Source: Quercus robur
Taxonomy: Eukaryota; Streptophyta; Magnoliopsida; Fagales; Fagaceae
NCBI RefSeq assembly: GCF_932294415.1
Contig: NC_065545.1
Location: forward strand, 18,542,857 to 18,606,856
Length of the DNA: 64,000 bases
Reading direction: 5' to 3'
The notes beneath the pieces were generated by a model. The model was not told the origin of the DNA and ran no database searches. It saw only the letters and a list, made by a program, of their open reading frames with translations. Position numbers and translations under genes: made by a program. Shown here in pieces: positions 20,676 to 61,980 of this stretch; position 1 is the stretch's first letter, and each line of letters begins with the position of its first letter.

Positions 20676-21070
20676 ATTATTATTACTAGTCGCATATCTA
20701 CGTGATGTGTGAGAATAAATAATTATTTTTTATTGTAATATAATGTATAATTTTTTCTCTAAATTTTTTTTGAAGATAATTTGTTCTCCCTAAAAATTAA
20801 ACAATTTATATTCGGTCCAATTAGGTCTACTTTGGTCCAATTCGGTCCACTCAATCAATTTTGGTCCCCCTTTAGTCCATTTTAGACTAATTTGGCCTAA
20901 AATTGATTCTTTTTGTAAGTTTTCTTTTCAAGTTTAGCTCAAAATTTTTTTTTTTCATTTTTTGGTTGAAAAGTATGAAATTTTATTATATTTGGCCTAA
21001 AATCTTTAGTTTTGATTTTAAAAAATACAAAGAAAAATACTAAAATAGACATTAGAAATTTGAAATACTA

Positions 21071-22129: not shown

Positions 22130-22168
<39 letters not shown>

Positions 22169-22197
22169 CCCTAAAAATGAAATAAAAATGATAAATA

Positions 22198-22735: not shown

Positions 22736-23041
22736 TGGGAGGGACGAATCTTTGACCCCAAGAAGGAATTATCCCCTTTGGAAATGACGTTAAGCCTTAA
22801 TTCTCAAGGTCTTACTCAATCCTATATCGGGGAGAGACGTCTCCCACTCATGCCTTATAAGGTTTTGGCCTATGAATGAACTTGTAGTAGTGGTACACTC
22901 ATCCTTAGGCCAAAGGCTTATAAGGCATGAGTGGGAGGCGTCTTTCTCCGATGTGGGATTGAGCAAAATCTTGAGGATTAAGGTTCAATGCCATTTCCAA
23001 AGAGGACAATTCCTTCTTAGGTTAGAGATTCGTCCCTCCCA
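22736..23041. mobile_element. Foldback element of about 306 bp inside the GGTCC array
   Basis: Arms at about 22736-22872 and 22906-23041 are inverted repeats of each other over roughly 135 bases, from tgggagggacgaatct at the edge to atgccttataag near the centre, with a loop of about 30 bases. No coding potential, and the target duplication is unclear. It would form a strong hairpin if transcribed. Confidence 0.8.
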
Positions 23042-23044
23042 CAA

Positions 23045-24186: not shown

Positions 24187-24220
<34 letters not shown>

Positions 24221-25228: not shown

Positions 25229-26173
25229 ATGACCTCTTCAAAAAAAAGAAAAGAAAGTGGTATGACAGGACTTTGGTCTGGTCTTCCTGCAGACCTTCTA
25301 TCATTAATTGTGGATCGATTAGGCCTAATTGAGCTTCTGAGTTTTCATGGTGTATGTAAGGCTTGGAGAGCTGCTGCATCCACAGCTTTATCTATGATTG
25401 AAGCCTCAGCCAATCATAAACCCTGGTTTCTAATCTATGGTGAAAATTCACAATGCCATTTGTATAATGAATCTGGAAGAAGGTACACTACTAGCATCCC
25501 AGAATTGGATGGAGCAACTCGCATTGCATCACACCAAGGATGGATTCTTGTATTTCAAGGAGGCTCAATGTTCTTCTACTGCCCATTCTCTCATGCAAAA
25601 ATAGATATTCCTACGTTTCCCCTTTCGGTACTCTCTAACCATGCTGCAGCATTTTCATCTCCTCCCACCACTCGTGAATGCATTGTTGCTGTCATGCATC
25701 GTGACATTATGTCTGGATTCTCGCTATACGTTCTTCAACGTGGAGCTAATGCATGGGCTAAGTGTGAACTCGTTCAATTTTATAATGTAAGGGAATTAGG
25801 TAGTGCTATATATGGGAATCAAAATTTCTATTTTTTTGACAAAATAAACAAATTAATTACCTTCTCTGTCAAGGACAAAACCTGTGTACAGCACACTCTA
25901 CTTAAGAATGAGAATTCAACCGCCATAAAGCATCTCCCCTATGTTCGTAGTAAGAGTCATTTTGTGAGAAGAAACATGAAGAAGAAATTGGGGCTGGGTG
26001 AAGATGTTTCAATTTCTATCTGTGGAACAGTGGTACAGAATGATAGCACTGACATTATTATATGTAATGAGGAAGTTGAGTCTGCTGAAGAATTTGAAAG
26101 CTGTTACCTCAAAGGGGTATGGATCCAACCAAGATTTTTTCACCTCTCTCCAAATCAGAGCTGGTCATTTTGA
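25229..26173 (+). CDS. F-box protein with DUF295 (KIB1-like) domain
   Basis: A single-exon frame encodes about 314 residues from the ATG at 25229 (MTSSKKRKESGMTGLW). In-frame upstream codons exist, but this start best matches the length of the paralogue at 34917. The F-box is at about residues 14-55 (LPADLLSLIVDRLGLIELLS and GVCKAWR). DUF295 follows, with the SMFFYCPFSHAKIDIP block and the C-terminal LKGVWIQPRFFHLSPNQSW. Plant F-box/DUF295 proteins are substrate adaptors of SCF ubiquitin ligases or their degenerate relatives; the target is not predictable. The frame is intact to TGA. It is clearly diverged from the 34.9-kb gene, so it is the older duplicate. Confidence 0.88.
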   Translation: MTSSKKRKESGMTGLWSGLPADLLSLIVDRLGLIELLSFHGVCKAWRAAASTALSMIEASANHKPWFLIYGENSQCHLYNESGRRYTTSIPELDGATRIASHQGWILVFQGGSMFFYCPFSHAKIDIPTFPLSVLSNHAAAFSSPPTTRECIVAVMHRDIMSGFSLYVLQRGANAWAKCELVQFYNVRELGSAIYGNQNFYFFDKINKLITFSVKDKTCVQHTLLKNENSTAIKHLPYVRSKSHFVRRNMKKKLGLGEDVSISICGTVVQNDSTDIIICNEEVESAEEFESCYLKGVWIQPRFFHLSPNQSWSF

Positions 26174-30745: not shown

Positions 30746-30905
30746 AAAAATAAAACTAACCGCCGGATACCAAAAGCCCTAGATTCGGTATGTAGTCCTA
30801 TATAAGACATATATGGTCACAACGCCTCTCACAGACCCTCTGCGTCTTAAAGTGGCAGAGAAAACAAATTTGTTCAATATTGTTCTTAGCTTAAGGTGAA
30901 GGGTA

Positions 30906-32915
30906 ATGGGGTTTTCTTTGATAAAATTGATGGGAAGCCAGTTCATGTCAAGTAGCCATAACACGATTGCAGCAAGTAGAATTTTCAATTCGAAGATTGT
31001 TCCTTCTGTGGGGTTGGCTGGAGTAATTGGAGTGCAACATATGATTCATACATGTACAAGGAGATTTTACCATGCAAATTTTTCTCAGAAATTCCTAAAC
31101 GGTGCAGCTACAACTCCTTCACTTAATTTGTGGGCACAAAGATGTCTGAGATTTTGTAAAAGAAACAAAGGCAGTTTGCTGTTTGGTGCTTTTGCTGCTT
31201 GTGTTACTCTTTCTTATGTGAGAATACAAAGAGTACCATACACAAAACAAATTCAATTTGTTACCAAAGAAACAACGGAGGAAAGGAGGGCAGAGGATCG
31301 CTGGAAGACGTTTATGGAGAGATACAAAGAAGATTTACTCCCTTTATCAGACCCTAGGAGTATTAGGGCACAATCCGTAGCTACAAATTTGATTAGAGCA
31401 ATGAAGGTGGGGTTAAGGCTTGAAAAGGAGTGCAAGGTCAATGGGAATTCATGTGAGGATGGAGTTTTTAGAGAGTATAGGGTACGTAGCGAGTGGGAAA
31501 GAGATAATGTAGATCACCTTAACAGCTTTAAATATGAAGGAGGGAATCTTCTTTCTGATTGTAAACTTTTATGGAAACCTAGTACTAAACATTTGGATGG
31601 AAAAGATTGGGAAGTTTATGTGTTGGATTGCCCTCATGAAGAAGATGCTTTACACTTCTGCCACTTCTCCCACTTTAATAAAAGGATTGTTATTCCTAGG
31701 GGGTTGCTCGACAGTCTAAAGTCCGATGCAGAGTTAGCATTATTTATTGGGCATGAGGTCTGTTTCTTTTTCTTTTTATATTAATTGTTTCTTTGGATAT
31801 TTTATGATTAGGATATTACAATTTTTTTTTTCTTCTTAGATTGGGCATATTGTGGGTCGACATATAGCAAGAATTTATATCAGGTTTTGCTGGAATATCT
31901 ATCTTCTCACTCGTATATTCGAAGAGAAGTTTGGATTTGAAGAGTTGTTTTGGGCTTATACTCGCAGATGGTATTATTTTCTTCTTTATCAATTTTTGGT
32001 ACTATGTGTTTAAGTCATTTTAATCATTGCAAATGCATTGGTTCAATTAATTTATTTTCCCTTTTGAATTCCTAAATATATATAATTGGTTTAAAGAATT
32101 TTATTTTTGAAAGTAGGAATCACAAGGATGTATAATTTGGTCGTTTATTTTATTTATTATGGTCAGGAGGCCCATAAATCAAGTAAAATAATACGAATCC
32201 AAACTATTAGCATGGTATATATACTATATACTACAATCCTAATTTAGGATTAGCTTCTTCTCAAGGAAAAAAAAAACATAGGATTATAAAAAAAAAACAT
32301 AGGATTATCTTTTTCCCTAGCAGTGACTGTTTGGTAAATTCACCCAAAACCGTTAATGATACTAAAACAATTGTTGAGTGGGACCACTTCCTACGGATTG
32401 AAATACTTGAGATTATATATAGATTTGTGAATCTAAAGAAAGCATTTGAATGTACTTTGAAAGCTTTTTTTTTTAAATTTTAATTCTGTTATTGTCTATT
32501 CTCTTTTAGACTTTTAGTATTGATCAAACAAAGCCAAAAGTGGTTGAAATTTCTTTTTGTGTGCTGTCCATAATATCGTTTGAAAATCCAAATTCTTCTA
32601 CCTTGGTTTTTTTTATTTGCACTAACTTTTACTTAAAAGTTTAGTTACATGTTTTTCATGTCAAATTAAAATAATGCTACACTTTGTTTCAATTATAGGA
32701 ATGAAAGGGAGGCAAATTATATTGGATTAATGTTAATGGCATCTGCTGGATATGACCCTGAAACAATAATTGGCGTATTAGAGAAGTCGGGCCAAACTTT
32801 CAATAAGAATCTACTAAAAGAGGCCAAAGAAATGGGAGAAGTGTTTGCTGTGTTCAAGAAAGTAAAAGATTACATGAATTTGAGAAGCGTGATTTATAGG
32901 AGCATGCTTGATTAA
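30906..32915 (+). CDS. OMA1-like mitochondrial metalloendopeptidase (M48 family), three exons
   Basis: Exons 30906-31757, 31840-31970 and 32699-32915, all GT-AG, join to 1200 bases, or 399 residues plus TAA stop. The N-terminus (MGFSLIKLMGSQFMSSSHN and an Arg-rich stretch with no acids) looks like a mitochondrial presequence. A hydrophobic segment (about residues 97-110, SLLFGAFAACVTLSYV) could be the inner-membrane anchor. The zinc site spans the first splice junction: GHE/IGH gives HEIGH, the HExxH motif at about 283-287, and the third ligand is in NEREAN at the start of exon 3. OMA1 proteases cleave inner-membrane substrates under stress. The frame is intact. The ending (RSVIYRSMLD) is shorter and more diverged than a standard plant OMA1, so this may be a specialised paralogue. 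A broken relative is at 51.5 kb. Confidence 0.85.
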
Positions 32916-33260: not shown

Positions 33261-34128
33261 ATTTGTGTTATGTGAATGGTGTCTTTTGTTTTACAATTTG
33301 GAAATTATAGGAATCTGAATTTCAATTAAGCACATAACATGGAAATGTGATTATTGAATTTAATGTTTCAGATTGAATGTGTTTTGAATTCGGAGTAATT
33401 ATCTTTAATTCTGTGACTACACTTGGCTAATTTTAGTGGTAATTGGATCTTAAATTGTTCTTTGTAAATGTTAAATTTTGCTACCTAGTATTTATCTTTG
33501 GAAAATCTGACAGCTGTTAGTGAACTAGTGAAACTAAAATTCTTGTGTGTGTGTGTGTGCTTGTACTGGTTTGGACTTTCTCAACATATAAAACAATACT
33601 ATGTGGTTTAATACTTTTGCACTTATCACAAATTAACATTGTGATGGCTGATCCTCACTCTGTAAATCTAGATCTCTGTTCTCTTGAGGAGGGGGTTTCT
33701 TCACCCCAATCTCCAAGGTAATATAATGCATGTGTTCTTGTTGATTTGTCTTTGTGTCTCTCGATTGTAGCAGGTTTACCATAAAAATGTCATGCATAGA
33801 TGATCCATGATTATGATCAACAAGTGTACATTTTAAAGTTGTATTTTCACACCCATCTCAAAAATCATGAATACATATACAATACGTGACATCAACATTT
33901 CTGAGTTCTTTTCTAAACAAAAAAGAGTGGCAATTTACCAATCAAGAAAAAAGAGAGTGGCAATTCTGATTGTAATTTTAGTAATATGTTGCTTTGATGC
34001 TTGAGTATCCTTCATTCCCCCTTCTTAAAATTTTGTTCTTGACAATATTTGGTATGTTAATGTTTTGTGTAGCTTCAAACAGGGTTTTTTTTTTTTTTTT
34101 TTGGGGTTAATTGATTAGAAAGAGAAGA

Positions 34129-34161
<33 letters not shown>

Positions 34162-34916
34162 CTGTAAACAATGCTTAGGCTTTGGTTAAATCCTGTTTTG
34201 GACACGTTCTCTACTAAACAATATTAGCAATCATAATTAATATAATTTAGTGAACTAATACTTAAATATAAATGCATACTTCATTGAGATGGAAGCCTAA
34301 ATAAAGAGAATTTGAAGGAATGTGCTACATAACCGAACCTCATGCTCTCACGCATGAGGTATTTGCTTTATGATTATTGATTCTTGTTGGTGATGAATTG
34401 CATTCTTTGAGTACAGTCATTTTGGTGATGAATTGCATTGTTTGGTTATTGAGCTATTCAGTACGCTAGTTAGTTTCTTTTGTGGTAAGAACTATACACG
34501 ATGACCAGTTTGGTTGTCGTTAGAATTTGTTTGACCTCATTCACATTTTCTATAAGACCATATAACATATAATGAATAATTCATCATGTTGAATAGGCTT
34601 TGTTTTTCTGATTTCATTAAATGCCCTTATTCTTTTTTCTTTGTTCTTTCTTTAATGATGGTGATGGTGATGATGATGACCACAATGATATGAGTAGCTC
34701 CACCACTGGTGTCCTTTTAAGCATTAGGAAGCTTTACTACTTCCAGGACACTCCACTACATTGATCAGGGCATGCCTGTATGAATGTAAAATTCTTTATG
34801 TTTTGTCAGTTCCTTTCTTGCTAGTTCTCCAGTAATCCTTTTCTATGTTCTTATAAGTTATAACATGTTTAGCAGGCATAGAATGTCCATAGAAACGGGT
34901 CTTATCAGGACTACAT

Positions 34917-35837
34917 ATGGCCAAAATGGCAGAGAGAAAATGGTCTGACCTTCCTTCTGACCTGTTATCACCAATTGCAGATAGGTTAGGCCTAATTGAG
35001 CTTCTCAGTTTCCGTGGTGTCTGCAAGGATTGGAAATCTGCTTCTACCACAGCTTCGGCTGAGATTGAGTCCTTACCAGATCATGAACCTTGGTTTCTGG
35101 TGTATGGTTCGAATTCTGAATGCATTTTGTTAAGCAGCTCGGGTAAAAAGTACACCATTAATATCCCAGAATTGAATGGAGCAACTTGCCTTGCATCAAA
35201 CAAAGGATGGCTTCTTATGTTCCAAGAAGGATCCATGTTCTTCTTTTGTCCCTTCTCTCATGCTAAAATAGACCTTCCAAGGTTCCCTCACTCGCAAGTC
35301 ACTGACCACGTTGCTGCGTTTTCATCACCTCCTACTTCTCAAAATTGTCTTGTTGCTGTTATTAATCGTAGTAGTGAAACCACGTTGGAGTTGAATATGC
35401 TTTGTCATGGGGCGAAGGTTTGGACTAATCACAAAGGGTATCTTCCGCGAGACACCATAAAGACAATCAAAGGTGCTACTTATCATGATGAAGAGTTTTG
35501 CTTCTTTGACAATTCAGAGAATCTAGTCACCTTTTCAATCGACAAAAGCTGGAATTTCTTTGTTATAATTCCTCGTCCCGAAGATAAATTACCGGGTATA
35601 AATGATCTACCAATTGGTCGTAGGATGAGACATTTTATACATATGAACATGAAGAATGAATTGGGGTTGCCAGAGAATGTTTCCATTTCTACTTGTGGGA
35701 CACTAGTTCATGATCGTATTGACAAGCTCGTACTTAATGAGAGGATTGAAGCTGCTGAAGATTCCATAAGCTACCAACTTAAAGGGGTGTGGATCCAACC
35801 AAGATTTTTCCAAGTCTCTCCAAATCAGAGCTGGTGA
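34917..35837 (+). CDS. F-box protein with DUF295 (KIB1-like) domain
   Basis: A single-exon frame of 306 residues begins MAKMAERKWSDLPSDLLSPI. The F-box is at about residues 9-48 (LPSDLLSPIADRLGLIELLS and GVCKDWKSA). DUF295 follows, with the FLVYGSNSE, SMFFFCPFSHAKIDLPRFP and FCFFDNSENLVTFS blocks, ending LKGVWIQPRFFQVSPNQSW. Its expected role is substrate recognition in a ubiquitin ligase complex. A second in-frame ATG lies three codons on, so the exact start is uncertain. A possible upstream exon at 33644-33717 is not clearly joined. The frame is unbroken, and this copy is likely functional while its duplicate at 19.3 kb is not. Confidence 0.9.
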   Translation: MAKMAERKWSDLPSDLLSPIADRLGLIELLSFRGVCKDWKSASTTASAEIESLPDHEPWFLVYGSNSECILLSSSGKKYTINIPELNGATCLASNKGWLLMFQEGSMFFFCPFSHAKIDLPRFPHSQVTDHVAAFSSPPTSQNCLVAVINRSSETTLELNMLCHGAKVWTNHKGYLPRDTIKTIKGATYHDEEFCFFDNSENLVTFSIDKSWNFFVIIPRPEDKLPGINDLPIGRRMRHFIHMNMKNELGLPENVSISTCGTLVHDRIDKLVLNERIEAAEDSISYQLKGVWIQPRFFQVSPNQSW

Positions 35838-36518
35838 CCATGAGGACTTATCTCTTTTCAGATTATCTCTCTCTTGCTCTTTTTCAATTTTGTTTAGGGA
35901 CATTCTTCTGTGTTTTATGGAAGCACTTGACTTTATAGCTACTTGCATAATTATTAAGGTCTTTTATGTTGGTGAGCTTAGTAAGAAAATTCCAATGCCA
36001 AGTAGTAATCTATTAATTTTTTTTTTCCTTCTAAGAAAATATTATAATCTTCTATTGCTAGGCCAAGGGCATATAGTTTCTGAATTTAAAATTTTTATAA
36101 ATCAAAAGCTACTGACTTGACATAAAAGTCAAAAATGTAAAAGCATAAATTCAGAACTTGTTGCAACTAAAATCAAGAATGCTTACAGTGGTGGTATCAT
36201 ATATAGAAATTGTTCAACTAGCAAAAGAAATGGATTAGCCTACTTTGTATTATTATTGTTATTATTACTAGTTGCATATCTACGTGATGTGTGAGAATAA
36301 ATAATTATTTTGTATTGTAATATAATATATAATTTTTTCTCTAAATTTTTTTTGAAGATAATTTGTTCTCTCTAAAAATTAAACAATTTATATTCGGTCC
36401 AATTAGGTCTACTTTGGTCCAATTTGGTCCACTCAATCAATTTTGGTCCCCTTTCAATCCATTTTAGACTAATTTGGCCTAAAATTGATTCTTTTTGTAA
36501 GTTTTCTTTTCAAGTTTA

Positions 36519-36552
<34 letters not shown>

Positions 36553-36667
36553 CATTTTTTGGTTGAAAAGTATGAAATTTTATTATATTTGACCCAAAAT
36601 CTTTAGTTTTGAGTTTAAAAAATACAAAGAAAAATACTAAAATAGACATTAGAAATTTGAAATACTA

Positions 36668-36995
36668 GTGTATAACCCATGCATATGCATAGTACAATTA
36701 AAAAAAATTACAATTACACACATATATAGATTCAAATTATACTCTCTCCTCTTTTATTTTTTTATTTTAATTTCTTTTGGATATACATGAGTTCACTTTT
36801 TTTTCTTTTATTATTGATTTTTGATGATTTATTTATAGTAGACCATTCGACTTTTGCACCTCATTAACTCACCTAGAAAATAAAAAATAAAAAACCTTAA
36901 ATAAGACACGTGGCGCAAAATTAGACAACAATTGGAATCCAATTTAAAATCTAATTAAATTTTCTCTCAGTTTTACCTATTTGTATATATATATA
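36668..36995 (-). mobile_element. Possible non-autonomous Helitron, copy in segment 2
   Basis: Same unit as 21071-21402: minus strand runs from a TA-rich start, through gtgccacgtgtc-like sequence (here gcgccacgtgtc), to ATACACTAGT. Present in both segment copies, so it predates the duplication. Confidence 0.5.
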
Positions 36996-37411
36996 TATAT
37001 ATATATGAGCCTTAACAATGAAATAAAAATGATAAATATTCAAAAGTCTTATTTGGTTCACATTGGTTCTATTTGGTCCATTCTACCATCTTTGGTCCAA
37101 TTTGGTCCTATTGAGTTCATTCAGTCCTATTTAGTCTTTTTTTTTATTATTATTTTAATGGCCACGTCAGGCCAACAATACATGCCGTTTGCCACATCAA
37201 CAATATCCGTTTATGATGTAACGGTAGGGACCAAAATGGAACGGTTTTTCAGGAGAGGGACTAAAAGCGGTAAAAAAAAAACTTAGGAACTAAAACGGGA
37301 ATCGGCTGAAAATATAGGGACCAAAATGTGTTTTTCGCCTATATTATTTTATTACGTAGAAATATTATTACACAATCCACTATCATATAAAAATTCCAAG
37401 ATAATATAAAA

Positions 37412-37600
37412 TCATAACACAAAAATTAGGAGAAGAGCAGATGTCAAAAGAAATAAAAAGGCACAACGTACACACAAAATGGGGTGTTTTACCTTTTTGA
37501 CATTCTCAAGCACATATTGGTCCACCTGGCTAGAAAGGACTAATAAGTGACTTGATTTCCACTGTCCACCTCCAACCGCAGTAAAATGTCTGTGAGTCAT
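37412..37600 (-). other. 62-residue open frame preserved in both duplicate copies
   Basis: The minus-strand frame begins MTHRHFTAVGGGQWKSSHLL and is identical at protein level to 42493-42681. A donor-like GTAAAA follows VLENVKK, so it might be an exon. No family is recognised. Identity may simply reflect a recent duplication. Confidence 0.25.
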
Positions 37601-38413
37601 GCTTCTTTGTCTGTGCGCTGGACTGGTTATGGTGGACCAGGGATTTTTGCATTTGTCAGTAGTTGTCTTTGGTTAATATTGAACGATTGATGTATGCGTA
37701 TAAATTTGAATAATCTCATGATAAAATCCCCAATCAAATCAAATTTAAAATTGAATCCCTTCCATATAAACCAAATCTGACCTTTTTCTTAACTTACAAA
37801 TTTGAATAATTTGATCTATTTACAACGTAGTTTTTTAATTTGAATAATTTCATCCATTTACAATGTAGATTTTTTTTTTTTTTTTTTTTTTTTCCCTTAG
37901 TCTAATATCTAAACTTTTCAATATAATAAAACTTATGTGCATAGTATACGGCATACGGGTGATGATGATAAATGAATAGTAATCTGAAACTTTGTACCAG
38001 TGGAGAATAAGTATTTGAAAAAAGTGTAATATACAAACATTTTTGCCAAAAAAAAAATGTTGGGAGCCATTGAAAGATGAGATGAGGAAGCCCACAAAAC
38101 TGAGTACTACTCATCTTCCTGTATACAGTGAAATATTTCAGAAGAAGAAGAAAATTCCCCCTGCAAATCCTGTCTTTTTATGACAAATTTATGGGCTCCA
38201 CCATGAATGCGTGGGAGTTGGATACGCCGTGTTTTGAGTGACGTGGTGTTCGAACCAATTCTCTCTCTCTCTCTAAAATTCAACCTCATATTCAACCCCT
38301 ATTTGACTGCCAAGTGTCACCAACCCATTTCCTAGAAGACTCATTGAGAGACCTTGCTTTCCTCCACCTTTAAAGAAAAGAAAAGAAAAGAAAAGAAATA
38401 AATTTGTCACTAA

Positions 38414-41499: not shown

Positions 41500-42435
41500 A
41501 TAGTATAGGAGATTAGGAGGGTCCCTTCAGAAAGTTGTAGCATCTTGATATCATCTTAACCCCATGATAATTGTTGCATCTAATTTGAGAACATGGAAAT
41601 GTTCTTTTTCCTTTTGTTGCTTGAGTGGGCAATTGGGCATGCCAAAATTGCTTGATAAGATTTGTATAGACCTTTTCGTGCTAGTCCACGAGCTAATAAT
41701 CAAATCAACAGAACCATTAAATGATCATATGTTTATTGCTTTTGATTTCTTTTGTTGCTTTGAACCTTAAAACTTTAAAGTGTGGTGAGGCCCCCTTTCC
41801 CCAATTCCACGAATCTTTAAATCTTTGATATGGTGATAGCAGAATATCCAATTAACTATCAATTTAAAGAAGACCCATTAAAGTGTAATGAAGCTGTCAA
41901 GAGTTATACCACAATTGGTATTTTTTTTTTTTTTTTTTTAGTATTAATAAATACGTCGAATTCAAATCTTACTTCTCCAACTAACAAATTAAGGAAAATA
42001 AAAAAAATGAGATCAACTCTAATATGGCAAACTGTGAGTAGGGTTGTTCACGGGTTAGGCCGAGTTGGGTTTTTGTCCAACCCAGAAGGGTTGGAATCGA
42101 CCCGATCACTTGGGTCCCCGAGATTTGAACCTGGTGCTGACCGATATGAGGAGTCAGTTCAAGTAGACCTACTCGGGTAGCAATTAGTCTTCGGTCGAAG
42201 TCTAGCTGGCCAAACTTGTTGGGTCTTGACGAGATCTTGGGTCAGTGGATTTGCTGCCTAGGTTTTTTTTTTTTTTTTTGGTGTTGACGGTAGATTATGG
42301 GTTACTGCTAGTGGTAGTGGTGCTGGTGTCAGGTGTGTGTAGTGCGACTGTGGTGGTGATTGTGGTTGTTGAACAGAAATAAAGAAAAAAAATTAATAAA
42401 TAATATGTTATATTGTAAATAAAGGTAATTATAAG

Positions 42436-43775
42436 ATATGAAATATTATTACACAATCCACTATCATATAAAAATTCCAAGATAATATAAAATCATAACA
42501 CAAAAATGAGGAGAAGAGCAGATGTCAAAAGAAATAAAAAGGCACAACGTACACACAAAATGGGATGTTTTACCTTTTTGACATTCTCAAGCACATATTG
42601 GTCCACCTGGCTAGAAAGGACTAATAAGTGACTTGATTTCCACTGTCCACCTCCAACCGCAGTAAAATGTCTGTGAGTCATGCTTCTTTGTCTGTGCGCT
42701 GGACTGGTTATGGTGGACCAGGGATTTTTGCATTTGTCAGTAGTTGTCTTTGGTTAATATTGAACGATTGATGTATTCGTATAAATTTGAATAATCTCAT
42801 GGTAAAATCCCCAATCAAATCAAATTTAAAATTGAATCCCTTCCATATAAACCAAATCTGACCTTTTTCTTAACTTACAAATTTGAATAATTTGATCTAT
42901 TTACAACGTAGTTTTTTAATTTGAATAATTTGATCTATTTACAATGTAGATTTTTTTTTTCCTTAGTCTAATATCTAAACTTTTCAATATAATAAAACTT
43001 ATTTGCATTAAATTTCTCTATGGTAAAAGTAGTTATTCAATGGTAATAGGAGGGTCCCTTGAGATAGTTGTAGTATCTTGATATCATCTTAAGCCCATGA
43101 TAATTATTGCATCCAATTTGAGAACATGGAAATGTTCTTTTTCCTTTTGTTGCTTGAGTGGGCAATTGGGCATGCCAAAATTGCTTGATAAGATTTGTAT
43201 AGACCTTTTCGTGCTAGTCCACAAGCTAATAATCAAATCAACAAAACCATTAAATGATCACATGTTTATTGCTTCCGATTTCTTTTATTGTTTTGAATCT
43301 TAAAACTTTAAAGTGTGGTGAGGCCCCCTTCCCCAACTTCCACGAATCTTTAAATCTTTGATATGATGATAGTAGAATACACAATTAACTATCAATTTAA
43401 AGAAGACCCATTAAAGTGTAATGAGGCTGTCAAGAGTTATACCACAATTGGTATTTTTTTTTTTTAGTATTAATAAATATGTCGAATTCAAATCTTACTT
43501 CTCCAACTAACAAATTAAGGAAAATAAAAAAAATGTGATCAACTCTAATATGGCAAACTGTGAGTAGGGTTGTTCATGGGTTAGGCTGAGTTGGGTTTTT
43601 GTCCAACCCAGAAGGGTTGGAATTGACCCGATCACTTGTGTCCCCAAGATCTGGACCGGGTGCTGACCGATATGAGGAGTCAATTCAAGTAGACCTACTC
43701 AAGTAGCAATTAGTCTTCGGTCGAAGTCTGGTTGGCCGAACTTGTTGGGTCTTGATGAGATCTTGTCGGATCTCA
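42436..43775 (+). repeat. Tandem duplication, second copy
   Basis: The compact form of the unit split at 37346-42240. It includes the conserved minus-strand 62-residue frame (42493-42681) and, near its end, the gttgggtttttgtccaaccc palindromic word shared with 42063-42090. Between the copies, 42241-42435 is T- and GT-rich and unassigned. Confidence 0.88.
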
Positions 43776-44749: not shown

Positions 44750-44937
44750 GATAAAATTAGGGGTGGCAAAATCAACCTAAACCCATTTGTCCACCCAAAC
44801 CCACCCAATTATTAATTGGGTTAAATGGGTATTAACCCAATTAAACCCAATTAACATTAATGTTTATTGGGTTTTAATTGGGTACCCAATTAGACCCAAT
44901 TATGATCCAACTATCATTTCTACAAATCACCCAACTC

Positions 44938-45740
44938 TAAAATGCCCCAAAACCATTAAAATTACCAAAATACCCCCCAAAACCCAAAAAATGACCAAAA
45001 TACCACCGAATCCCAAAAAATGACCAAAATACCCTAGAAACCTAAAAATGACCAAAATACCCCCAAAACCTAAAAATGACCAAAATTCCCTCGAAACCCA
45101 TAAAATGACCAAAATACCCCCGAAATCTAAAAATTACCAAAATACCCCTGAAATCCAAAAAATGACCAAAATACCCCCGAAACCTAAAAATTACCAAATT
45201 CCTCTGAAACCTAAAAAAGGGGCAAAAATAACCCCAAAGCTTAAAAAATGACCAAAATAACCCCAAAACCTAAAAAATGACCAAAATACGCCCCCCCGAA
45301 ACCTAAAAAAATGACAAAAATACCCTCGAAACCTAAAAAATGGCCAAAATAACCCCGAAGCCTAAAAATTGATCAAAATAATCTAGAGACCTAAAAATGA
45401 CCAAAATACCCCCCTAAAACTATAAAATGACCAAAATACCCCCTAAACCTAAAAAATGACCAAAATACCCATGAAATCTAGAAAATGACCAAAATACCCT
45501 CAAACCTATAAAGTGACGAAAATACCCCTAAACCTTACCCAAATAAACCCAAAACCTCTAAAATGGCCACAAACTACTTGAAACCTCTAAAATTACCAAA
45601 AATACCCTGAAACCCCTAAAACGACCAAAATACCTCTAATCCTAAAAAATGACCAAAATACCCCTCAAAATATCTAAATGACCAACATACCACTAATCCT
45701 ATAAGATGAACAAAATACACTCGAAGCCTCTAAAATTACC
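44938..45740 (+). repeat. Minisatellite array, left arm
   Basis: About 27-31-base units of the form aatgaccaaaatacccc followed by gaaacctaaaa, imperfect and in direct orientation, roughly 25-28 units. Units drift more toward the centre of the element. Confidence 0.92.
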
Positions 45741-45744
45741 AAAA

Positions 45745-47345
45745 TAGGGGTTTACGGTATTTTGGATGTTTCGAGGGTATTTTAGTTAAATTAAAGGTTC
45801 TAAGAGTATTTCAGTCATTTTGTAGGTTTTGATGGAATGTCACTAATTTTTTAGGTTTTAGGGGTGTTTAGTTAACTTTTAGATTTTGGGGCCTTTTTTT
45901 GTAATTTTCTAGGTTTTGGAGGTCGTTAAATAACTTTTTAGGTTTTGGGGATATTTCAATCATTCTTTAGGTTTCTAAGTTATCTAAGTCATTTTTAGGT
46001 TTAGGGGTTATTTTGGTCATTTTTTATGTTTAGGGAGTATTTTGGTCATTTTTTAATTTTAGGAGGGATTTGGGTAATTTTTTAGGTTTAGGGTGCATTT
46101 TTATCGACTTATAGGTTTAAGGGGCATTTTTGTCATTTTATAGGTTTCGGGGTATTTTGGTCATTTTTTAGGTTTCGAGAATATTTTAGTCATTTTAAGG
46201 TTTAGGGGTTATTTTTGTCATATTTAGGTTTCAGGGGTACTTTGGTCATTTTTTAGGTTTCAGGGGGCATTTCAGTTAATTTTTGGGTTTCGAGGGTATT
46301 TCGATAATTTTTTAGGTTTCGAGGGTATTTTGATATATTTTTTTTGGGTTTTGGGGGTATTCTGGTCATTTCTAGGTTTCGGGGGTATTTTGGTAATTTT
46401 TTGGTTTCGGGTGTATTTTGGTCATTTTATGGGTTTTGGGGGTATTTTGGTAATTTTTAGGTTTCAAGGGTATTTTGGTCATTTTTTGGATTCCTGGGGG
46501 TATTTCAGTTAATTTTTGGGTTTCGAGGGTATTTCGATAATTTTTTAGGTTTCGAGGGTATTTTGATATTTTTTTTTTTGGGTTTTGGGTGTATTCTGGT
46601 CATTTTTAGGTTTCGGGGGTATTTTGGTCATTTTCTATGTTTCGGGAGGTATTTTGGTAATTTTTTGGTTTCGGGTGTATTTTGGTCATTTTATGGGTTT
46701 TGGGGGTATTTTGGTAATTTTTAGGTTTCAAGGGTATTTTGGTCATTTTTTGGATTCCTGGGGGTATTTTGGTCTTTTTGTAGGTTTCGTGATTATTTTG
46801 GTAATTTTTAGGTTTCATGGGTATTTTGGTCATTTTTTAGGTTTTGGGGGTATTTTGATCATTTTTTGGGTTTTGGGGGTATTTTGGTCATTTTTTGGGT
46901 TTTAAGGGTATTTTGTTCATTTTTTGGATTTTGGGGGTATTTTGGTAATTTTTTGGGTTTCGGGTGTATTTTGGTCATTTTTTGGGTTTCGGGGGTATTT
47001 TGGTAATTTTTTGGGTTTCAGGGGTATGTTGGTCATTTTTTGGATTTCGGGGGTATTTTGGTAATTTTATGGGTTTCGGGGGTATTTTGGTCATTTTTTA
47101 GGTTTCGGGAGTATTTTGGTCATTCTTTGTGTTTCAGGAGTATTTTGTTAATTTTTAGGTTTCGGGGGTGTTTTGGTCATTTTTTGTGTTTCTGGGGTAT
47201 TTTGGTCATTTTTTAGGTTTCAGGGGTATTTGTCATTTTTTGGATTTTGGGGGTATTTTGGTAATTTTAAATTTGAGGGTATTTTGGTCATTTTTGAAGA
47301 TTTTAGAGTATTTTGGTCATTTTCACTTTAGTGGCATTTTGATAA
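45745..47345 (-). repeat. Minisatellite array, right arm (inverted)
   Basis: The same unit in reverse orientation (ggggtattttggtcattttt then aggtttc), roughly 50 units. A block of about 250 bases (about 46265-46515) is repeated nearly exactly at about 46510-46760, so this arm grew by block duplication. Confidence 0.92.
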
Positions 47346-47821
47346 TTTTGATAATTGGGTAATTGGGTGGGTTGGGGTTTACCCATAATAATTGGGTTGG
47401 GTTGGATTTGGGTTAGAAGCAATTAATTAAATGGATTTTAATAGGTAAATGGGTTTTATATACCCAACACAATTATGTTCACCCCAACCCCACTTATTTG
47501 CCACCCCTAGATAAAATAGACTTGTTTTTAAGTTGAGGAATTAAATCAACATAATTGAAAGTTCAATGACTAATAATAATATTGACACTATTAACGTACA
47601 GTAGAGTAGTAACCAAATTGAACTTTTCCTAGTACTTCAATAATTGTGAATTGAGCTTTATTTTAAGTATTCCTACCTAAAAATTCCCATACTGGCTAGT
47701 CTCTTTTGTAAATTGCTTACGTATGTTGACCAATATACCATATATTTAGACTTAGAAAAAAAGAGAGACAGACTCCATTTTTTCACTTCTTCGATCTGAA
47801 AAACGTAACTCTCATTGAAAC

Positions 47822-48132
47822 ATGGCAAAGAAACCTGTCAAGTACTGCGTGGTACTTCTCAGTTCTCTCTATCTGTGTTACATATTTATCAATGGGATTC
47901 TGAGTTTGTAGTGGGACTTAATTGGCAGGTGGACACGTTCACTGAGTCAGCGTTCAAGGGGAACCCGGCAGCTGTATGTTTGTTAGAGGAAGAAGATCAA
48001 AGGGACGAGAAGTGGTTTCAACTGGTGGCAGCCGAGTTCAACATCTCCACTACGTGTTACTTGACTCAGCTCACTCACTCTGACTCACCCACTCCTCACT
48101 TCCGTATCAGATGGTTCAGCCCTGTAGCTGAG
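47822..48132 (+). pseudogene. PhzF-family (phenazine biosynthesis-like) gene, first two exons only
   Basis: Exon 1 is 47822-47851 (MAKKPVKYCV). Exon 2 is 47929-48132 (VDTFTESAFKGNPAAVCLLE ... FRIRWFSPVAE). Both have GT-AG signals and join in frame. This is the N-terminal part of plant PhzF/isomerase-fold proteins, including the FxGNPAAV signature with the region expected to hold the catalytic Glu just after it. The next exon, which should carry the CGHATLA-type motif, was searched for down to 51 kb and not recognised. Either intron 2 is very long and later exons are lost, or only a fragment is here. The frame of the part present is clean. Confidence 0.8.
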
Positions 48133-48807
48133 GTATGTGCTTTGGCTTGTAACTCATTGACAAAATAAAGAAATAGCAAATCAGATAATAAAAATAAAAT
48201 AAAAATTTGTTGTGTATGTACGCATGCTACTTGTTTTTTTTTTTTTTTGGAGAAGGACATGCTACTTGTAGTTGGTAAAAAAGAAAGTAGAGAATTATAA
48301 AAAGAAAAGATATTTATTATTAATTTACTACTTTCTTTGGGAGGCTATATTAATTTGCCGCCCAAAAAAAAGAAAAAGAAATATTAGAATTTTGAAATTT
48401 GAAAGAAAAAGGAATTAGTTTAAAAAAAAAAAAAACAGTTAAATGCGCCTTTGAATAGCCTTTTTATGAGGGCTACAAAAGTTCAGTTTATTTTTATTAT
48501 TATTATTATTTAAAAAAAAAAAAGACTAACATATTTGTATCTAAAAAATCTGGGATTCGAAGAAAATGTACATAAGTACAGGAATGGAGCCAGAACTTTG
48601 AGTTAGGGGGGCAATTTTATCGTTGAGATTTCAACCTCTGATTTTGCTACTTAGATGTTGAGATTTTTTTTTTTTGGTAGGTAAGAATAAAATTATTTTT
48701 GTGTAGATTTTTTTTTTTTTTAAAAAGGGCAAGGTTATTTATTTTTGATAAAATTAGTTAATTGAGCCTAATTTTGTTTTTAGTTTTACTCGTAATTTTT
48801 GTTGTTG

Positions 48808-51059: not shown

Positions 51060-51459
51060 AATCATTTTATTAAATTTTGATTAATGTGAAAGTGTGCATC
51101 CAATTTTTTTTTTTTAAATAAAATACTTATTTCAATGGTTATAAACTATTGAAACTTATCTCAAGATACCTTTTGCCAAGGGTTAGGTGCCTGTGGATAA
51201 AAGTAATAAGCAAACTTTAATCTATATTTATGTGTATATATTTCAACGGTTTATAATAATATTTTGACCTTTATTAACCGTTGACAAATGTGTAACACTT
51301 TTTTCAACGGTTATATAGGCTGTAGAAAAATGTTCTCGACACAGTTTTTAATAACGGTTCTCTACGGTCATTCCAACCGTCGAAAATACTTTTTTCGACG
51401 ATTTTTAGTACTTTTTTTTACGGTTTCAACTGTTGAAAATAACCAAATTTTTTGTAGTG
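51060..51459 (-). mobile_element. CACTA-type transposon terminus
   Basis: The right edge ends TTTTTTGTAGTG at 51459, the complement of CACTACAAAAAA, the classic En/Spm end. Over the preceding 350 bases short words of the type caacggtt and accgtt recur in both orientations, as expected of subterminal transposase-binding repeats. The opposite CACTA end was not found in the window, so the element is truncated or rearranged. Confidence 0.75.
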
Positions 51460-51461
51460 AA

Positions 51462-52951
51462 CATATGATTCATACATGTACAAGGAGATTTTACAATGCA
51501 AATTTTTCTCAGAAATTCCTAAACAGTACAGCTACAACTCCTTCACTTAATTTGTGGGCACAAAGATGTATGAGATTTTTTAAAAGAAATAAAGGTAGAT
51601 TGCTGCTTGGTGCTTTTGCTGCTTTTGTTGCTTGTGTTACTCTCTCTTATGTGAGAATACAGAGAGTACCATACACAGGACGAATCCAACTTGTTTCCAT
51701 TGAAGAAGTCGAGGAAAGGAGGGTAGACAAGCGCTGGAACATATTAATGCGTTACAGCAAAGATTAAGTACTCCCTTTATCAGACCCTAGAAGTCTTCAA
51801 GCACAATTCATAGTTGCAAATGTCATTAGAGCATTGCATGTCAGGTTAAGACTTGAAAAGGATTGCAAGGTAAATGGGCATTCATGTGAGAATCCAGATT
51901 TTAGAGACTATAAGGCAAGTCACGAGTGGGAAGGAGATAATGGAGATGAAGATCATGTTAACTGCTTTGAAGAAAAGAGCATTCCTTTTAAGGAGGATCA
52001 TAAACTCTCGATATGGAAACCTAGTACCAAACATTTGGATGGAAAAGATTGGGAAGTTTATGTGCTGGATTTAGGCGGAACAGGAGAAAATTCAATTAAT
52101 TCTAGAATTTATGGAAACCTATTAGATTGGGCATATTGTGGGTCGACATATAGCAAGAATTTATGTAAGGTTTCGCTGGAATATCTTATGTTTCGGCCAT
52201 TTATTAACTATGGAGCCCTTTCCAGCTTTAATGCCTTTGGTGGAGTGCAGTTGGGCTGCTTCGCAAAAATGGTATAATTTTCTTCTTGTTGATGTTTGAT
52301 ACCATGCGTTTAAGTCAATTCATTTTTGAGAGTATGTTTAAGTTATTCCAGTAGTTCCTTTTTGAGAGTATGTTTAAGTTATTCTAGTAGTTTGCAGTAG
52401 TTTATTTGTTTTGTCCTTAGCAGTAATTGTTTTATAAATCCATATTCAAACCCAATGCTACTAATAGAATTTTTGAGTGGAGCTACTCCCTTAAGGGATT
52501 GAATTTTTTTGAGTTTATATTTGGATTTGTGAATCTGAGTGTGTGTATATATATATATATTCTTTTTGTCTTTCTTTTTAGTATTGGTCAAACAAAACCA
52601 AAAGTGGTTGAAATTTCTTTTTGTGGTGTCCATAATTGTTTTGAAAATCCAAATTCTGCTACCTTGATTATTTCCTACACATTTACAGTTATATAAAGGT
52701 TTAGTTTTATGTTTTTCATGTCAAATTATAATAATGTTACATTTGGTTTCAATCATAGGAACGAAAGAGAAGCAAATCGTATTGGATTAATATTAATGGC
52801 AATCACTGGATATGATCCTCTAATGGCATATGAAGCATTCGATAAGATGGGTCAATCTTATGATGATAACGTACTTATAAGGTTCAAAGATATGAAAGAA
52901 GCGTATAACTTGTACAAGGAAGAGAAATCTTCCACAAATTTGCGAAGCTAG
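51462..52951 (+). pseudogene. OMA1-like metallopeptidase copy, decayed
   Basis: The first piece (51462-51767) reads HMIHTCTRRFYNANFSQKFL and onward as in the gene at 30.9 kb, but without its first ~43 residues; the CACTA end directly abuts the break. The frame stops at SKD in 51765-51767 and resumes at about 51770. It changes again after VYVLD near 52068, where the exon coding the HExxH block is lost and exon-2 sequence follows directly, lacking the intron and the GHE part. The last exon (about 52759-52951) reads NEREANRIGLILMA and ends KSSTNLRS. The zinc site is gone, so it cannot be an active protease. Divergence from the 30.9-kb gene is moderate. Confidence 0.9.
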
Positions 52952-52954
52952 GAG

Positions 52955-53522
52955 GATGCTTCCGAAGTGGAAATCTTAATGCTTGTTTGCCTTCAAAAAA
53001 TACTAATTGCATGGAGAGGATAAATGCTCTATCGTATAATTCATTCTTTATTTAGAAGTATAAGTACAATCATCAATCTGATTAATTTTGATTTTACGAA
53101 GGAGATTTTTTATAGTCTTTTATTTTATATTGAATATTTGAGCCATTAAATTTTGTAATAGAATCAATAGCTCATTTTTTGGCGTCTACTATGTATATAT
53201 GTCAAGGGTCTTACAACTATCATGATCTATTTGAGGACAAACATTGATCACAGTTGTCAAAGGGCAAGGCAGACCCAAACTGGTATGCGTTAAGAAGGTC
53301 TATAAAACCATGCCCTACGGTGCTCATCAGACAACTAGACAAGAAGTAAAAAATAGAGTTTTTTACATATATAGCAACATGCACTTTATACTTTTTGTGC
53401 ATATTTTTGCCTATACACTACATCACAAACGACCACAAAATCACACCCACGTACAATCAAATATCTCCACAGATTGGATAGTTTTGTCTAGAAGCTGAAG
53501 TAAGTGAACCTATTTTAAGTGA

Positions 53523-56364: not shown

Positions 56365-56405
<41 letters not shown>

Positions 56406-56627
56406 AACACACAAAACAACACATCTTCCAAGAGTAAAAAGAAAACCTTTCCATTACTACTGCTACTAGCAAATACCTTTTTGAAACTCGCTGTACGATT
56501 GGCTCACTGTTCCCACCAATCCCAAAACCTAGCATATAACTTTAATTTTGTCCTAACCCTGACTATGTATGACTATAATGGAAATATTTGTTATGACTAT
56601 AAAATGAGAATATTTGTTAGCTTCTAA
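55877..56627. other. AT-rich spacer
   Basis: Includes a TA tract at 56370-56400. No gene recognised. Confidence 0.5.
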
Positions 56628-58170
56628 GGGTGAGTTTGGTTCAGCTTTTTGAAAAAGTACATAATGAAAAAGTGGAGTTTTATAAAAGTGCATAATGAAA
56701 AAGTGGAATTTCAAAAAGCTGAGTGTTTGGTAAAAGCTGTTAAAAAGTGCATAATGAAAAAGCTGAGTGTTTGGTAAAAACTGTTAAAAGTGGCTTTTTG
56801 AGGGGTAAATGACCAAAAAGGACAATGTATATATAAGAGAATTTATTTCATACTTTTTTTTTTTTTTTTTTTATGTGAGTTTGTTTCATACTTAAATCAA
56901 TTATTTCATCATACTTAAATCAATTTTTCTTTTTCTAAAAAAAATATTTTTTTCTCACCAATATTAGCTAATAATAACTTACCACTTAAGATTTATTATG
57001 AAAGTATTGTGAAAATATTGTGATAAAAATTGATACTAATTTTAATTTTAACATACTATTAAAATTATTTTTTTCTCTTTCTAAAAAAATTATTTTTTTC
57101 TCACTAATATTAGCTAATAATAACCTACCTTAAGATTTATTGTAAAAATATTGTGATATAATTTTTTTTCTCTCCCCACACACACACACACACACGGGCT
57201 CTCCTTCCCTTCTTTCTTTTTTTCTTTTTTTTTTTTTTTCCCTCTTTTTTTCTCCTCCACCCACGTACCCACACTCTTTTCTTTTGTTTTTTCCTTCTTT
57301 TGTTTTTTCCTTCATTCCTCTTTTATTCCTACCACACCAGCACCATCCAGAACATTCATTCCACAGCTCTTTCATCTTTTTTTTTTCCTCTTAAGCACTT
57401 CAGGCCAGAACAGTCGCTCTCTTTCTTCTTCTTTTTTTTTTTTTTTTTTTTTTCCTCTTAGCACTTCAGGCCAGAACAGTCGCTCTCCTTCTTCTTCTTT
57501 TTTTTTTTTTTTTTGTTCTCTTAGCACTTCGAAACGAATGAAGGAACCAGCTCTCCTTCTTCTTTTTCTATTTTTTTTTTCTTGTTCTTGGATCATCGGG
57601 AAGATTGGATGATCGGGAAGATTGGATGGTCAGTAAATCTCTCCCTCCCCTTTTTTTTTCGTCAGTCTTTTTGATCCATCGGAGGGTCATGATCTGCTGT
57701 TGTTCTAATTTTCTTGTTGTTGTTGTTGATCTGCTGTTGATCCGAAAGAGTTGTTGCTCTAATTTTTTTTTTTTTTTTTCTGTTCTTGATCTACTGTTTC
57801 CGAAAGAGTTGTTCTAAATTTTTTTTCTTTTTTTCTGTTCTTGATCTGCTGCTTCCGAAAGAGCTGTTCTATTTTTTTTTTTTTTCTGTTCTTGATCTAC
57901 TGTTTCCGAAAGAGTTGATGTTCTAATTGAATGGGTATTTCCGTAATTTTACCGTAGCAACGGTAACCATCCAAAACGTGCACTGCGCGTTTTCATTTAT
58001 GGACCCTCAGAGGTCCATAAAATTTTTCGCGTTTGTTCGCGTTTTTGCTCTATGCCCAAAACGCAACTTTTTGATAAAAGTTGCGTTTTGGGCTTGACCA
58101 AACGCAAATTTAGGGCTGGCTTTTTTTAAAAAGTGCTTTTTGAGCTGAAAATGTGGAACCAAACGGGCAC
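56628..58170. mobile_element. PIF/Harbinger-like non-autonomous element, 1543 bp
   Basis: Ends GGGTGAGTTTGGTTCAGC and (complement) GTGCCCGTTTGGTTCCAC, both followed by aaaaagt words. Flanked by TAA (56625-56627 and 58171-58173). Inside are a gctgagtgtttggtaaaa duplication at the left and two T-tract-bearing tandem arrays. One has units around cttcaggccagaacagtcgc (57395-57545), the other units around cttgatctgctgtttccgaa (57720-57920). No transposase. Confidence 0.78.
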
Positions 58171-58569
58171 TAAGTGTTGGAACTTGGAAGTTATATTATA
58201 ATATCACGAGAAAGTTTATGTCAGTATTAAAAAATTAGGATTAGATGACCAAGCATTAACATTAGTAAGGGACATGGTCGAGAACCATTGTATGGCCAAT
58301 TAACAAATTTGTAAGTATTCCATTCCCGTTAGACAGTGTCCACAAGAGGTGTAATTATTACACCATTAAAGTTTTGTTAATCCCATGAAACTCTTATGAC
58401 ATATTAAAGTGCCCACAATATTAATTACACCACTAAAATAGCATAATGTTAATTCTTATCAATTAAAAGAGTCGACTAAAACTAAAACAGTTAACTACAA
58501 TCCCGTTTAAATTCACAACATGGATAACAAAAGAATCCCCCTAAGCACATGTTTTTCTTTGTGGCCAAG

Positions 58570-58727
58570 GAAAAATTATTAAGTACTCCCGGAGTACCAT
58601 AAATGCGTACTCCCTCCTCTCACATAAATAGTGGGTCCCACCATGAATTTAATTAGTGAGACCCACCATTCATGTGAAAGGAGGGAATATGCATTTATGG
58701 TACTCCGGAAGTACATAATAATTTCCC
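58570..58727. mobile_element. Mutator-type hairpin MITE, 158 bp
   Basis: Almost the whole element is two ~70-base inverted arms (tactcccggagtaccataaa and its counterpart tactccggaa). A perfect 9-bp direct repeat gtggccaag flanks it (58561-58569 and 58728-58736). The 9-bp target and GRAAAATTATTA ends fit MULE-derived MITEs. Confidence 0.88.
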
Positions 58728-58808
58728 GTGGCCAAGGGATGATGGGGCGGGAATGAGTTTTGTTTATGTTGTCCCTTCCTGAATGTGTGTCTATAAAATT
58801 TTAATTTA

Positions 58809-58848
58809 GTATATGTTTGGATCTGGATGAACTTGCGTTTGGCGTTTT

Positions 58849-58905
<57 letters not shown>

Positions 58906-59080
58906 CTGCACGTGTTTCAGCTTTAGGGGGACAAAATGTACTGTTCACAGGTCTCACAACCACTTTATTCAGAAAAAAAATATATTAAAATGGGTTCCAC
59001 AACACTATTCACACATTTAAAAATTATTTTGCTATAATGTTTTCAAGTTTTTGTAAAATAAGCTGTATCCAAACGGACCA
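58809..59080. mobile_element. PIF/Harbinger-like MITE, 272 bp
   Basis: Ends GTATATGTTTGGAT and (complement) TGGTCCGTTTGGATAC, flanked by TTA on both sides (58806-58808 and 59081-59083). Contains a T run of about 50 bases at 58851-58900. Confidence 0.75.
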
Positions 59081-59083
59081 TTA

Positions 59084-59430
59084 TTGTATACAAAACATAT
59101 TTATACTTTTTTTCACATATTCTACTACTATAAATACTTTTGGATCACTTTGTTTCTTATTCTTTGTAGATCATAAATGGGGGAATGGAAAATACGTTTT
59201 TTATTTTTTTTTTGCAACAAATTGAATCCTAAAAAAAAAAAAAAAAAAAAATTGGTAACAAATTTACTAAATTGTACATTAAATCCTATAAACTAATAAA
59301 AATTTGATTTGTTTCACAAGAAAATAAAAGAAAGGACAAAATTAAACTTTATAAAAAAGTCTCAGCTCTATTGTTTGAAATTAACTATAGAAAAATTATT
59401 TTTAGGTTTAAAAATGAAGAAGAACATTTT

Positions 59431-59474
<44 letters not shown>

Positions 59475-60398
59475 TTAGTTTGAATTGGGTAGGGTTTGGG
59501 TACCCATGGGACCAAGAGCTGGGGACAATGGCGGCTCCATAAATTTTCTTGAGGGTGGACATTAAGAAACTTTAAATTATACAAAATCTAATAAAAATAA
59601 AATTTTATATATTGAAAAAAAAACACAAATACATTAAGTTTTACAATTTTCTTCTACGAGTTTTCATATTTTGAAACTGTTGTACAATAGTCTTATTATC
59701 AATGCTACTACAAGCTACACCACTTTCAAATTTAAGTTCAATAAATCTTTTCATGGGCTTCTTCTTTTTGTTTTGTTTTGTTTTTTTGAAAGGCTTCTTT
59801 TTGTTTGAAATGGCCTAATATATTGTTAAGAAGAGAAAATTTAAAAAAAAAAATTTGTTGGATCTTAAAAAATTTAGGGTGATCACAAACTCGCAGTTTT
59901 TTAAGGTTAAACAAATCATAATTAAAAAAATGTGTATATATATATATATATATATGCCAAGCTGGCTTGTGTCCATTCTACTGCTTAGAGAGAATTTAGC
60001 CCCTTAAGCATGTGTGGGAAAATGAGTAACAAAAATGATAGATTTATTATTATTTTTTAGTACAGCCAGATATTATAGCTTAACTGAAATGAAAATAGCA
60101 ATGGGATTCAACTCGGCCCAAGTTTGAACTAGCTTGAATTGGGCCAACGACAACAACCTGTTCAATTCATCTACATTTTCGAAAGCCCATCATCATCCCT
60201 GAAAAAGGTTAAAAAATCGAAATCTTTGTAAAAAAAAAAAAAAAAAAAAACGGTTAACTACGTTTGGTTAGGTTATCTAACCCTATCCCTAACCCTACAA
60301 TCCCTATAAAACCCCTAAAACCCCACCCCTAAAACCCATCACTGTTCATTCAAAAAAAAAAAAAAGAAAAAAACTCAGTCTCTACTCTAGCTTTGAAA
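59084..60398. other. Intergenic DNA with a possible hAT relic
   Basis: At about 59525-59830 a hAT-like edge (atggcggctcc) is followed, reading minus, by a tail resembling the C-terminus of ZMYM1-like hAT transposases (near 59650-59760: ELKFESGVACSSIDN then FQNMKTRRRKL). Also T and A runs (59433-59471, 60229-60250), a TA tract (59936-59955) and repeated aaccctaaccct-like words at 60280-60330 before the next gene. Confidence 0.35.
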
Positions 60399-61395: not shown

Positions 61396-61652
61396 CTCCG
61401 TCGGAGTGGGTTTGCTGCGTGGGTTTTTTTTTTTTGGTGGTGTGGATGGTCGGAGAGGGTGGTGTTGGTGGCTGTGCTGTGTTGGCGTTGGTCCGTCGGA
61501 GTGGGTTTTGGGTAAGTGGGTTTGCTGCGTGGGTTTTTTTTTTTTTTTTTTTTTTTGGTGGTGTGGATGGTCGGAGAGGGTGGTGTTGGTGGCTGTGCTG
61601 TGTTGGCGTTGGTCCGTCGGAGTGGGTTTTGGGTAAGTGGGTTTGCTGCCTG

Positions 61653-61695
<43 letters not shown>

Positions 61696-61980
61696 GTGGT
61701 GTGGATGGTCGGAGAGGGTGGTGTTGGTGGCTGTGCTGTGTTGGCGTTGGTCCGTCGGAGTGGGTTTTGGGTAAGTGGGTTTGCTGCGTGGGTTTTTTTT
61801 TTTTTTTTTTTTTTTTGTGGTGTGGATGGTCGGAGAGGGTGGTGTTGGTGGCTGTGCTGTGTTGGCGTTGGTCCATCGGAGTGGGTTTTGGGTCAGTGGT
61901 TTGTTGCCTGGTTTTTTTTTTTTTTTTGTGGAGTGGATGGTCGGAGAGGGTGGTGTTGGTGGTGCTGTGTTGGCGTTGAA
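61396..61980 (+). repeat. Five-unit minisatellite with variable poly-T
   Basis: Units of about 105-130 bases carry gtgtggatggtcggagaggg, gttggcgttggtccgtcgga and gtgggtttgctgcgtggg, each followed by a T run of 11 to about 36 bases. Unit length varies mainly with the T run. Long frames on both strands are repeat artefacts. Confidence 0.92.

Follow-up and report, generated by a model that had tools for sequence, protein, structure and literature searches.

Among the systems compared here, the closest by layout to the locus described below, a 2752-base element in the oak Quercus robur, is Tetris, a foldback element of Drosophila virilis that, in the available excerpts of its description, has an outer non-array domain, tandem repeats of varying number in both arms, no conserved open reading frame and target duplications of 8–10 bp, and whose authors suggest membership of Mutator (PMC4079207). 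The same excerpts name foldback elements in Drosophila, sea urchin, Arabidopsis, rye and Chironomus, and report repeats in the terminal inverted repeats (TIRs) of Galileo that hold extra transposase sites (PMC4079207). Short TIRs (11–25 bp), an 8-base duplication and AT-richness characterize the non-autonomous hAT elements and hAT miniature inverted-repeat transposable elements (MITEs) BniHAT-1/2 of Brassica nigra and Mar of Drosophila willistoni, of which Mar is non-coding (PMC7385995, PMC3517528, both in excerpt). The oak element lies at 44758–47509 of a 64,000-nucleotide stretch (assembly GCF_932294415.1, contig NC_065545.1, positions 18,542,857–18,606,856 of the forward strand; the window hereafter), and it is very probably a non-autonomous DNA transposon of the hAT superfamily and of foldback type, with opposed arrays of a 29-base minisatellite inside. 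Inverted arms built of short tandem repeats, as in the oak element, are also those of FB in Drosophila and TU in sea urchin, the latter with 8-base duplications; the hosts differ.

The oak element resembles BniHAT-1/2 and Mar in its short TIRs, 8-base target duplication and AT-richness, and Mar also in its lack of recognizable coding. Those elements are 610–673 bases long, with no mention of a tandem-array body in the excerpts of their descriptions, whereas the oak element is about 86% minisatellite (2374/2752 bases), the remainder being non-array ends; a preliminary description of the stretch, drawn from its letters, had gone too far in taking the whole body for minisatellite. With Tetris the foldback layout is shared, but in the excerpts Tetris has 220-base units in small number (3 or 4 in the left arm of one example) and an inner and a middle domain, unlike the oak element with its 29-base units, 28 in one arm and 55 in the other, no middle domain and hAT-like ends. 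The oak unit also differs from the repeats of Galileo in bearing no resemblance to the terminal repeat: as a candidate source of the unit the terminal repeat was rejected (best ungapped match 6/13; null mean 6.6), and local alignments of the unit with the outer ends were unremarkable (P = 0.23–0.56). A hAT element with a minisatellite foldback body was not among the literature matches listed, a coverage with subscription journals mostly outside it, and unit strings of 14–15 letters gave no match in the literature search.

The structure of the element is real and not a product of chance. The 13-base inverted ends TAGGGGTGGCAAA are each exact and the target-site duplication GATAAAAT is identical at 8/8 positions on the two sides. 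A scan of the window for 13-base perfect inverted ends, 60–6000 bases apart, with an 8-base perfect direct repeat outside them returned six pairs, one being the element and five being (AT)n microsatellite at two places (22154–24200, and nested pairs in 56390–59946), while dinucleotide shuffles of the whole window yielded such a pair in 0/15 cases. With the terminal repeats included, the non-array ends measure 200 bases on the left and 169 on the right (187 and 156 without them) and are rich in CCCAATTA, the subterminal regions being dense in CCCAATTA/AATTGGGT. Sites of the CCCAAT type are concentrated here: the 369 bases hold 11 of the window's 48, where 300 shuffles of the end sequences held 2.2 on average. 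In hAT elements, as in Ac, clustered subterminal motifs serve transposase binding. A long inverted similarity between the outer ends was marginal, with an alignment score of 40 where 300 shuffles averaged 22.6 and reached 38 at most; in direct orientation the score was 29.

The candidate assignment to hAT rests on these ends. Elements of this superfamily have TIRs of 5–27 bp, an 8-bp duplication and typically less than 5 kb of sequence (PMC10741241, in excerpt), and the oak element, with 13 bases, 8 bases and 2752 bases, falls within all three ranges. Its length places it outside the MITEs, which are small and mostly below 500 bases (PMC10741241, in excerpt). The end of Mar, CAG(G/A)GGTAGGC, is similar to that of the oak element (PMC3517528, in excerpt). 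As for the foldback type, the element has long inverted arms with tandem repeats, 28 + 55 units and 789 predicted cross-arm pairs. The TAGGG at both ends fits YARNG, the hAT terminal consensus. The preliminary description had proposed perfect ends with a perfect duplication, of hAT type, in a foldback layout, and the exact ends, the 8-base duplication and the opposed arrays bear it out. No recognizable coding capacity was detected, with 0 Pfam matches at E 0.1 in the 10 frames scanned of the 12 of at least 60 amino acids that overlap the element.

Decomposition of the interior by wrap-around alignment with consensus updating, both arms being started from the same seed unit, gave a left arm of 28 units and a right arm of 55, in opposite orientations and with a common 29-base majority consensus, GGTATTTTGGTCATTTTTTAGGTTTCGGG; central pieces of 12 bases on the left and 2 bases on the right were left out of these counts. 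At least 24 aligned positions were present in 26/28 left and 55/55 right units; the two short left units were excluded from identity, column and methylation counts and kept in the register and lag tests. The two arms meet at 45739–45765 without a unique spacer. Of two opposed arrays with about 25 and about 50 units, as first described, the arrays stand and the counts are replaced by those given here. The same holds in part for the idea of a megahairpin: the layout is that of a foldback, but the hairpin is imperfect, with unequal arms whose four longest BLAST matches to each other are 76–79% identical and lie in four different registers. A block duplication in the longer arm, previously put at 250 bases, was recovered (46266–46498 against 46499–46762) with 229 identical positions, 4 mismatches and 31 gap positions that are mostly one extra unit.

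Mean unit identity was 0.765 within the left arm, 0.746 within the right arm and 0.751 between arms (permutation P = 0.53), showing that left and right units cannot be told apart and that the arms have a common origin. Their order is not mirrored, the best register scoring 1.80 against a null mean of 1.71 (P = 0.29) and zero offset scoring 0.85. The arms, with indistinguishable units in unmirrored order, thus share an origin and seem to have been rebuilt independently. Within the right arm, likeness between units stood out at lags 1, 2 and 8 (permutation P = 0.000, 0.004 and 0.004; 12 lags tested), the last of which fits the block duplication. Growth of the arrays by unequal exchange or slippage had been suggested earlier, and local tandem duplication is backed both by that block and by the likeness of neighbours in the right arm. 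Identity to the consensus by quarter, from the centre outward, was 0.783, 0.833, 0.892 and 0.852 in the left arm over all 28 units (0.787, 0.862, 0.885 and 0.897 over the 26 full units) and 0.756, 0.873, 0.878 and 0.866 over the 55 units of the right arm, so that the apex quarter is the most decayed in both arms, a gradient given without a significance test. This gradient would place turnover away from the apex, in mid-arm and farther out.

The 81 full units also carry a pattern of change at the 11 C/G columns of the consensus. Changes of the C-to-T type were found at 38/155 positions in CG context (two columns), 21/80 in CHG context (one column) and 55/636 in CHH context (eight columns), with 16, 3 and 54 transversions, respectively, at the same columns. 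CG and CHG together differed from CHH with Fisher P values of 1.2e-9 (transition against unchanged) and 5e-4 (transition against transversion), values that are too small because the units descend from each other. Such decay at CG and CHG is the trace expected of arrays with methylated cytosines, and hints at methylation in a comparison made without an unmethylated control array.

A read-through transcript forming a long double-stranded RNA had also been proposed, and this holds as a fold prediction for an RNA that would be mostly, not wholly, paired. The predicted minimum free energy of the whole element as RNA was −1181 kcal/mol against −707 to −733 kcal/mol for 8 shuffles, and that of the antisense RNA, given without shuffles, was −1022 kcal/mol. 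Nine other stretches of the window ranged from −580 to −799 kcal/mol, among them 46001–48752, which contains the greater part of the right arm but not the left (−583 kcal/mol). In the predicted fold 789/1078 pairs join the two arms. Perfect complements between arms were found for 91/778 21-mers and 43/775 24-mers of the left arm and for 126/1548 21-mers and 61/1545 24-mers of the right arm. A long paired RNA from the element is a possible product, as predicted by folding. For the phased or 24-nt small RNAs that the preliminary description expected from it, the sole hint, an indirect one, is the C-to-T excess at the CG and CHG columns of the units.

Taken together, these features suggest the following history. 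To judge from its duplication, the element would have inserted as a unit, leaving the 8-base repeat, and it would need a hAT transposase from elsewhere to mobilize it in trans, one recognizing the 13-base ends and perhaps also the subterminal regions rich in CCCAATTA. Inside, the 29-base minisatellite forms two head-to-head arrays of common origin, each of which seems then to have altered its length and content separately by unequal exchange or slippage, as the block duplication, the similarity of neighbours in the right arm, the unequal arm lengths and the absent mirror register indicate. Turnover in the middle and outer arms would leave the units around the hairpin apex to decay. If transcribed, the RNA is predicted to fold into a long imperfect hairpin and could feed small-RNA silencing.

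Several observations weigh against this account. Duplications of 8 bases occur in other superfamilies too. The Buster family of hAT has a duplication consensus of nnnTAnnn (PMC3517528, in excerpt), which GATAAAAT with AA at the two middle positions does not fit, a point that tells against Buster only. A hAT transposase was absent from the 10 frames scanned of the window's 24 of at least 150 amino acids, no paralogue of the 2-kb flanks that crosses the insertion site occurs within the window, and the window has a single copy of the element. The arrays have no detectable sequence in common with the ends, which leaves the origin of the unit unexplained. In the left arm the sole lag that stood out was 4 (P = 0.022, one of 12 lags). 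By nearest neighbour, 20/26 left units were nearest a right unit and 47/55 right units were nearest a right unit, counts that decide nothing because ties were assigned to the right arm and right–right pairs are inflated by the block duplication. The methylation-like pattern has a single column for its CHG class and, its units being non-independent, optimistic P values.

The element could instead be a foldback of another superfamily, Mutator-like or P-like, with a duplication that is 8 bases long by chance and ends that merely look like those of hAT. The misfit of the duplication to the Buster consensus would agree with this, as would a MULE transposase fragment in the same window (6733–7401, minus strand; PF10551, E = 1.2e-9), but the end motif, the short TIR and the hardly inverted subterminal regions suit hAT better than the long TIRs of Mutator, and we regard such an origin as unlikely. 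It is also improbable that the hairpin arose by inverted (palindromic) duplication of a full-grown array, with the arms as mirror copies. One majority consensus serves both arms and the centre lacks a unique spacer, as such an event would have it, but the mirror register is absent, zero offset scoring no better than the averages within arms (0.90 and 0.98), and the best four-unit diagonal between arms (15.8) lies below its null mean (19.1). These scores give a mirror-copy origin no support, and the sole version left is a duplication old enough for later turnover to have erased the order. An assembly artefact, with the array collapsed or inflated, is very unlikely. Short-read assemblies are prone to errors in such arrays and the near-identical block could be inflated, but 78/83 units are distinct, the five that occur twice all lie within the block duplication, and neither the ends nor the two target duplication copies contain a mismatch, which makes gross misjoining unlikely without vouching for the exact number of units.

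Relatives of the element were sought in sequence collections as well as in the literature. An exact 20-mer had 0 matches in viral_contigs, a viral collection with little bearing on plant copies. A two-unit pattern matched one stretch in viral_contigs (L001) and one in genome_contigs (L002, from Peribacillus), these collections being viral or bacterial/archaeal. Neither was accepted as a relative, L001 looking like an unrelated repeat in the roughly 400 bases of it that were read and L002, its sequence itself unread, being taken for chance. Phrases such as GGGTATTTTGGTCATTTT are, we assume, common in plant genomic sequence, in which case the arrays may be widespread. In the available part of PMC11677473 the terminal 13-mer is found once, inside the tobacco primer NtTD-R, TATAGGGGTGGCAAATGGGC, a lead towards such ends in tobacco.

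Table 1. Features of the oak element and the adjoining gene (positions in the window).
Feature	Position	Strand	Evidence
Left target duplication copy, GATAAAAT	44750..44757	.	
Left terminal inverted repeat, TAGGGGTGGCAAA	44758..44770	+	
Left subterminal region, non-array, 8 of the window's 48 CCCAAT/ATTGGG sites	44771..44957	+	
Left arm, 28 units (outermost partial) of the 29-base repeat, GGTATTTTGGTCATTTTTTAGGTTTCGGG read on the minus strand	44957..45746	-	
Centre: CCAAAATA, 11 bases, TATTTTGG	45739..45765	.	Printed sequence
Right arm, 55 units of the 29-base repeat; 2-base central piece uncounted	45747..47330	+	
Block duplication, copy 1, units R20-R27	46266..46498	+	
Block duplication, copy 2, units R28-R36, one extra unit	46499..46762	+	
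Right subterminal region, non-array, 3 CCCAAT/ATTGGG sites	47341..47496	-	
Right terminal inverted repeat, TAGGGGTGGCAAA	47497..47509	-	
Right target duplication copy, GATAAAAT	47510..47517	.	
Putative start codon and first exons of a PhzC/PhzF-like gene, outside the element	47822..48132	+	PF02567, E 3.5e-22, for 47923-48132

The window contains further repeats. A segmental duplication joins 18545–21406 and 33481–37003 through three matching pieces of 89–98% identity, and an F-box/KIB1-4 beta-propeller frame (34893–35837) overlaps its second copy, with a more distant relative at 25064–26173. Local duplications pair 37359–37942 with 42440–43008 (96%) and 41514–42239 with 43047–43765 (94%). A perfect 221-base tandem duplication (100%) at 14944–15389, partly in an open frame of the minus strand, has a further copy at 15557–15921 (81–82% similar), and 61424–61978 is a tandem array with a 121–138-base unit, long T runs and long low-complexity open frames on both strands. 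The stretches 30900–31784 and 51452–52989 are related (81% identical over 627 bases); the former matches Peptidase_M48 and the latter looks like a decayed M48-like copy, with an in-frame stop at 51765–51767 and no Pfam match for 51285–51767. Bordering this decayed copy, 51160–51459 contains repeated CAACGGTT-type motifs and ends in TTTTTTGTAGTG, which looks to us like a CACTA terminus. The exact motif CACTACAA is absent from the plus strand and present twice on the minus strand (47906, 51452). At gathering thresholds, the sole Rfam match in the window is a tRNA. Genes of the window such as the F-box/KIB1-4 frame, together with the MULE fragment, look like those of a flowering plant.

The element ends 312 bases before a putative ATG at 47822. 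In our own reading this ATG (MAKKPVKYCV) and the exon at 47923–48132 are joined in one gene over a short intron. There is a small chance that the locus stands for a family derived from a hAT transposon that turned into a mobile minisatellite hairpin, with continuing mid-arm turnover, a transcript feeding small-RNA silencing and the action of a length-variable epigenetic switch near a promoter, here that of the PhzF-like gene. The apex-decay gradient amounts to a testable statement on where the arrays of foldback elements turn over. The element illustrates one route by which inverted minisatellite arrays could be carried and spread by a cut-and-paste transposon, and such arrays are candidates for generating both double-stranded RNA and length variation close to genes.
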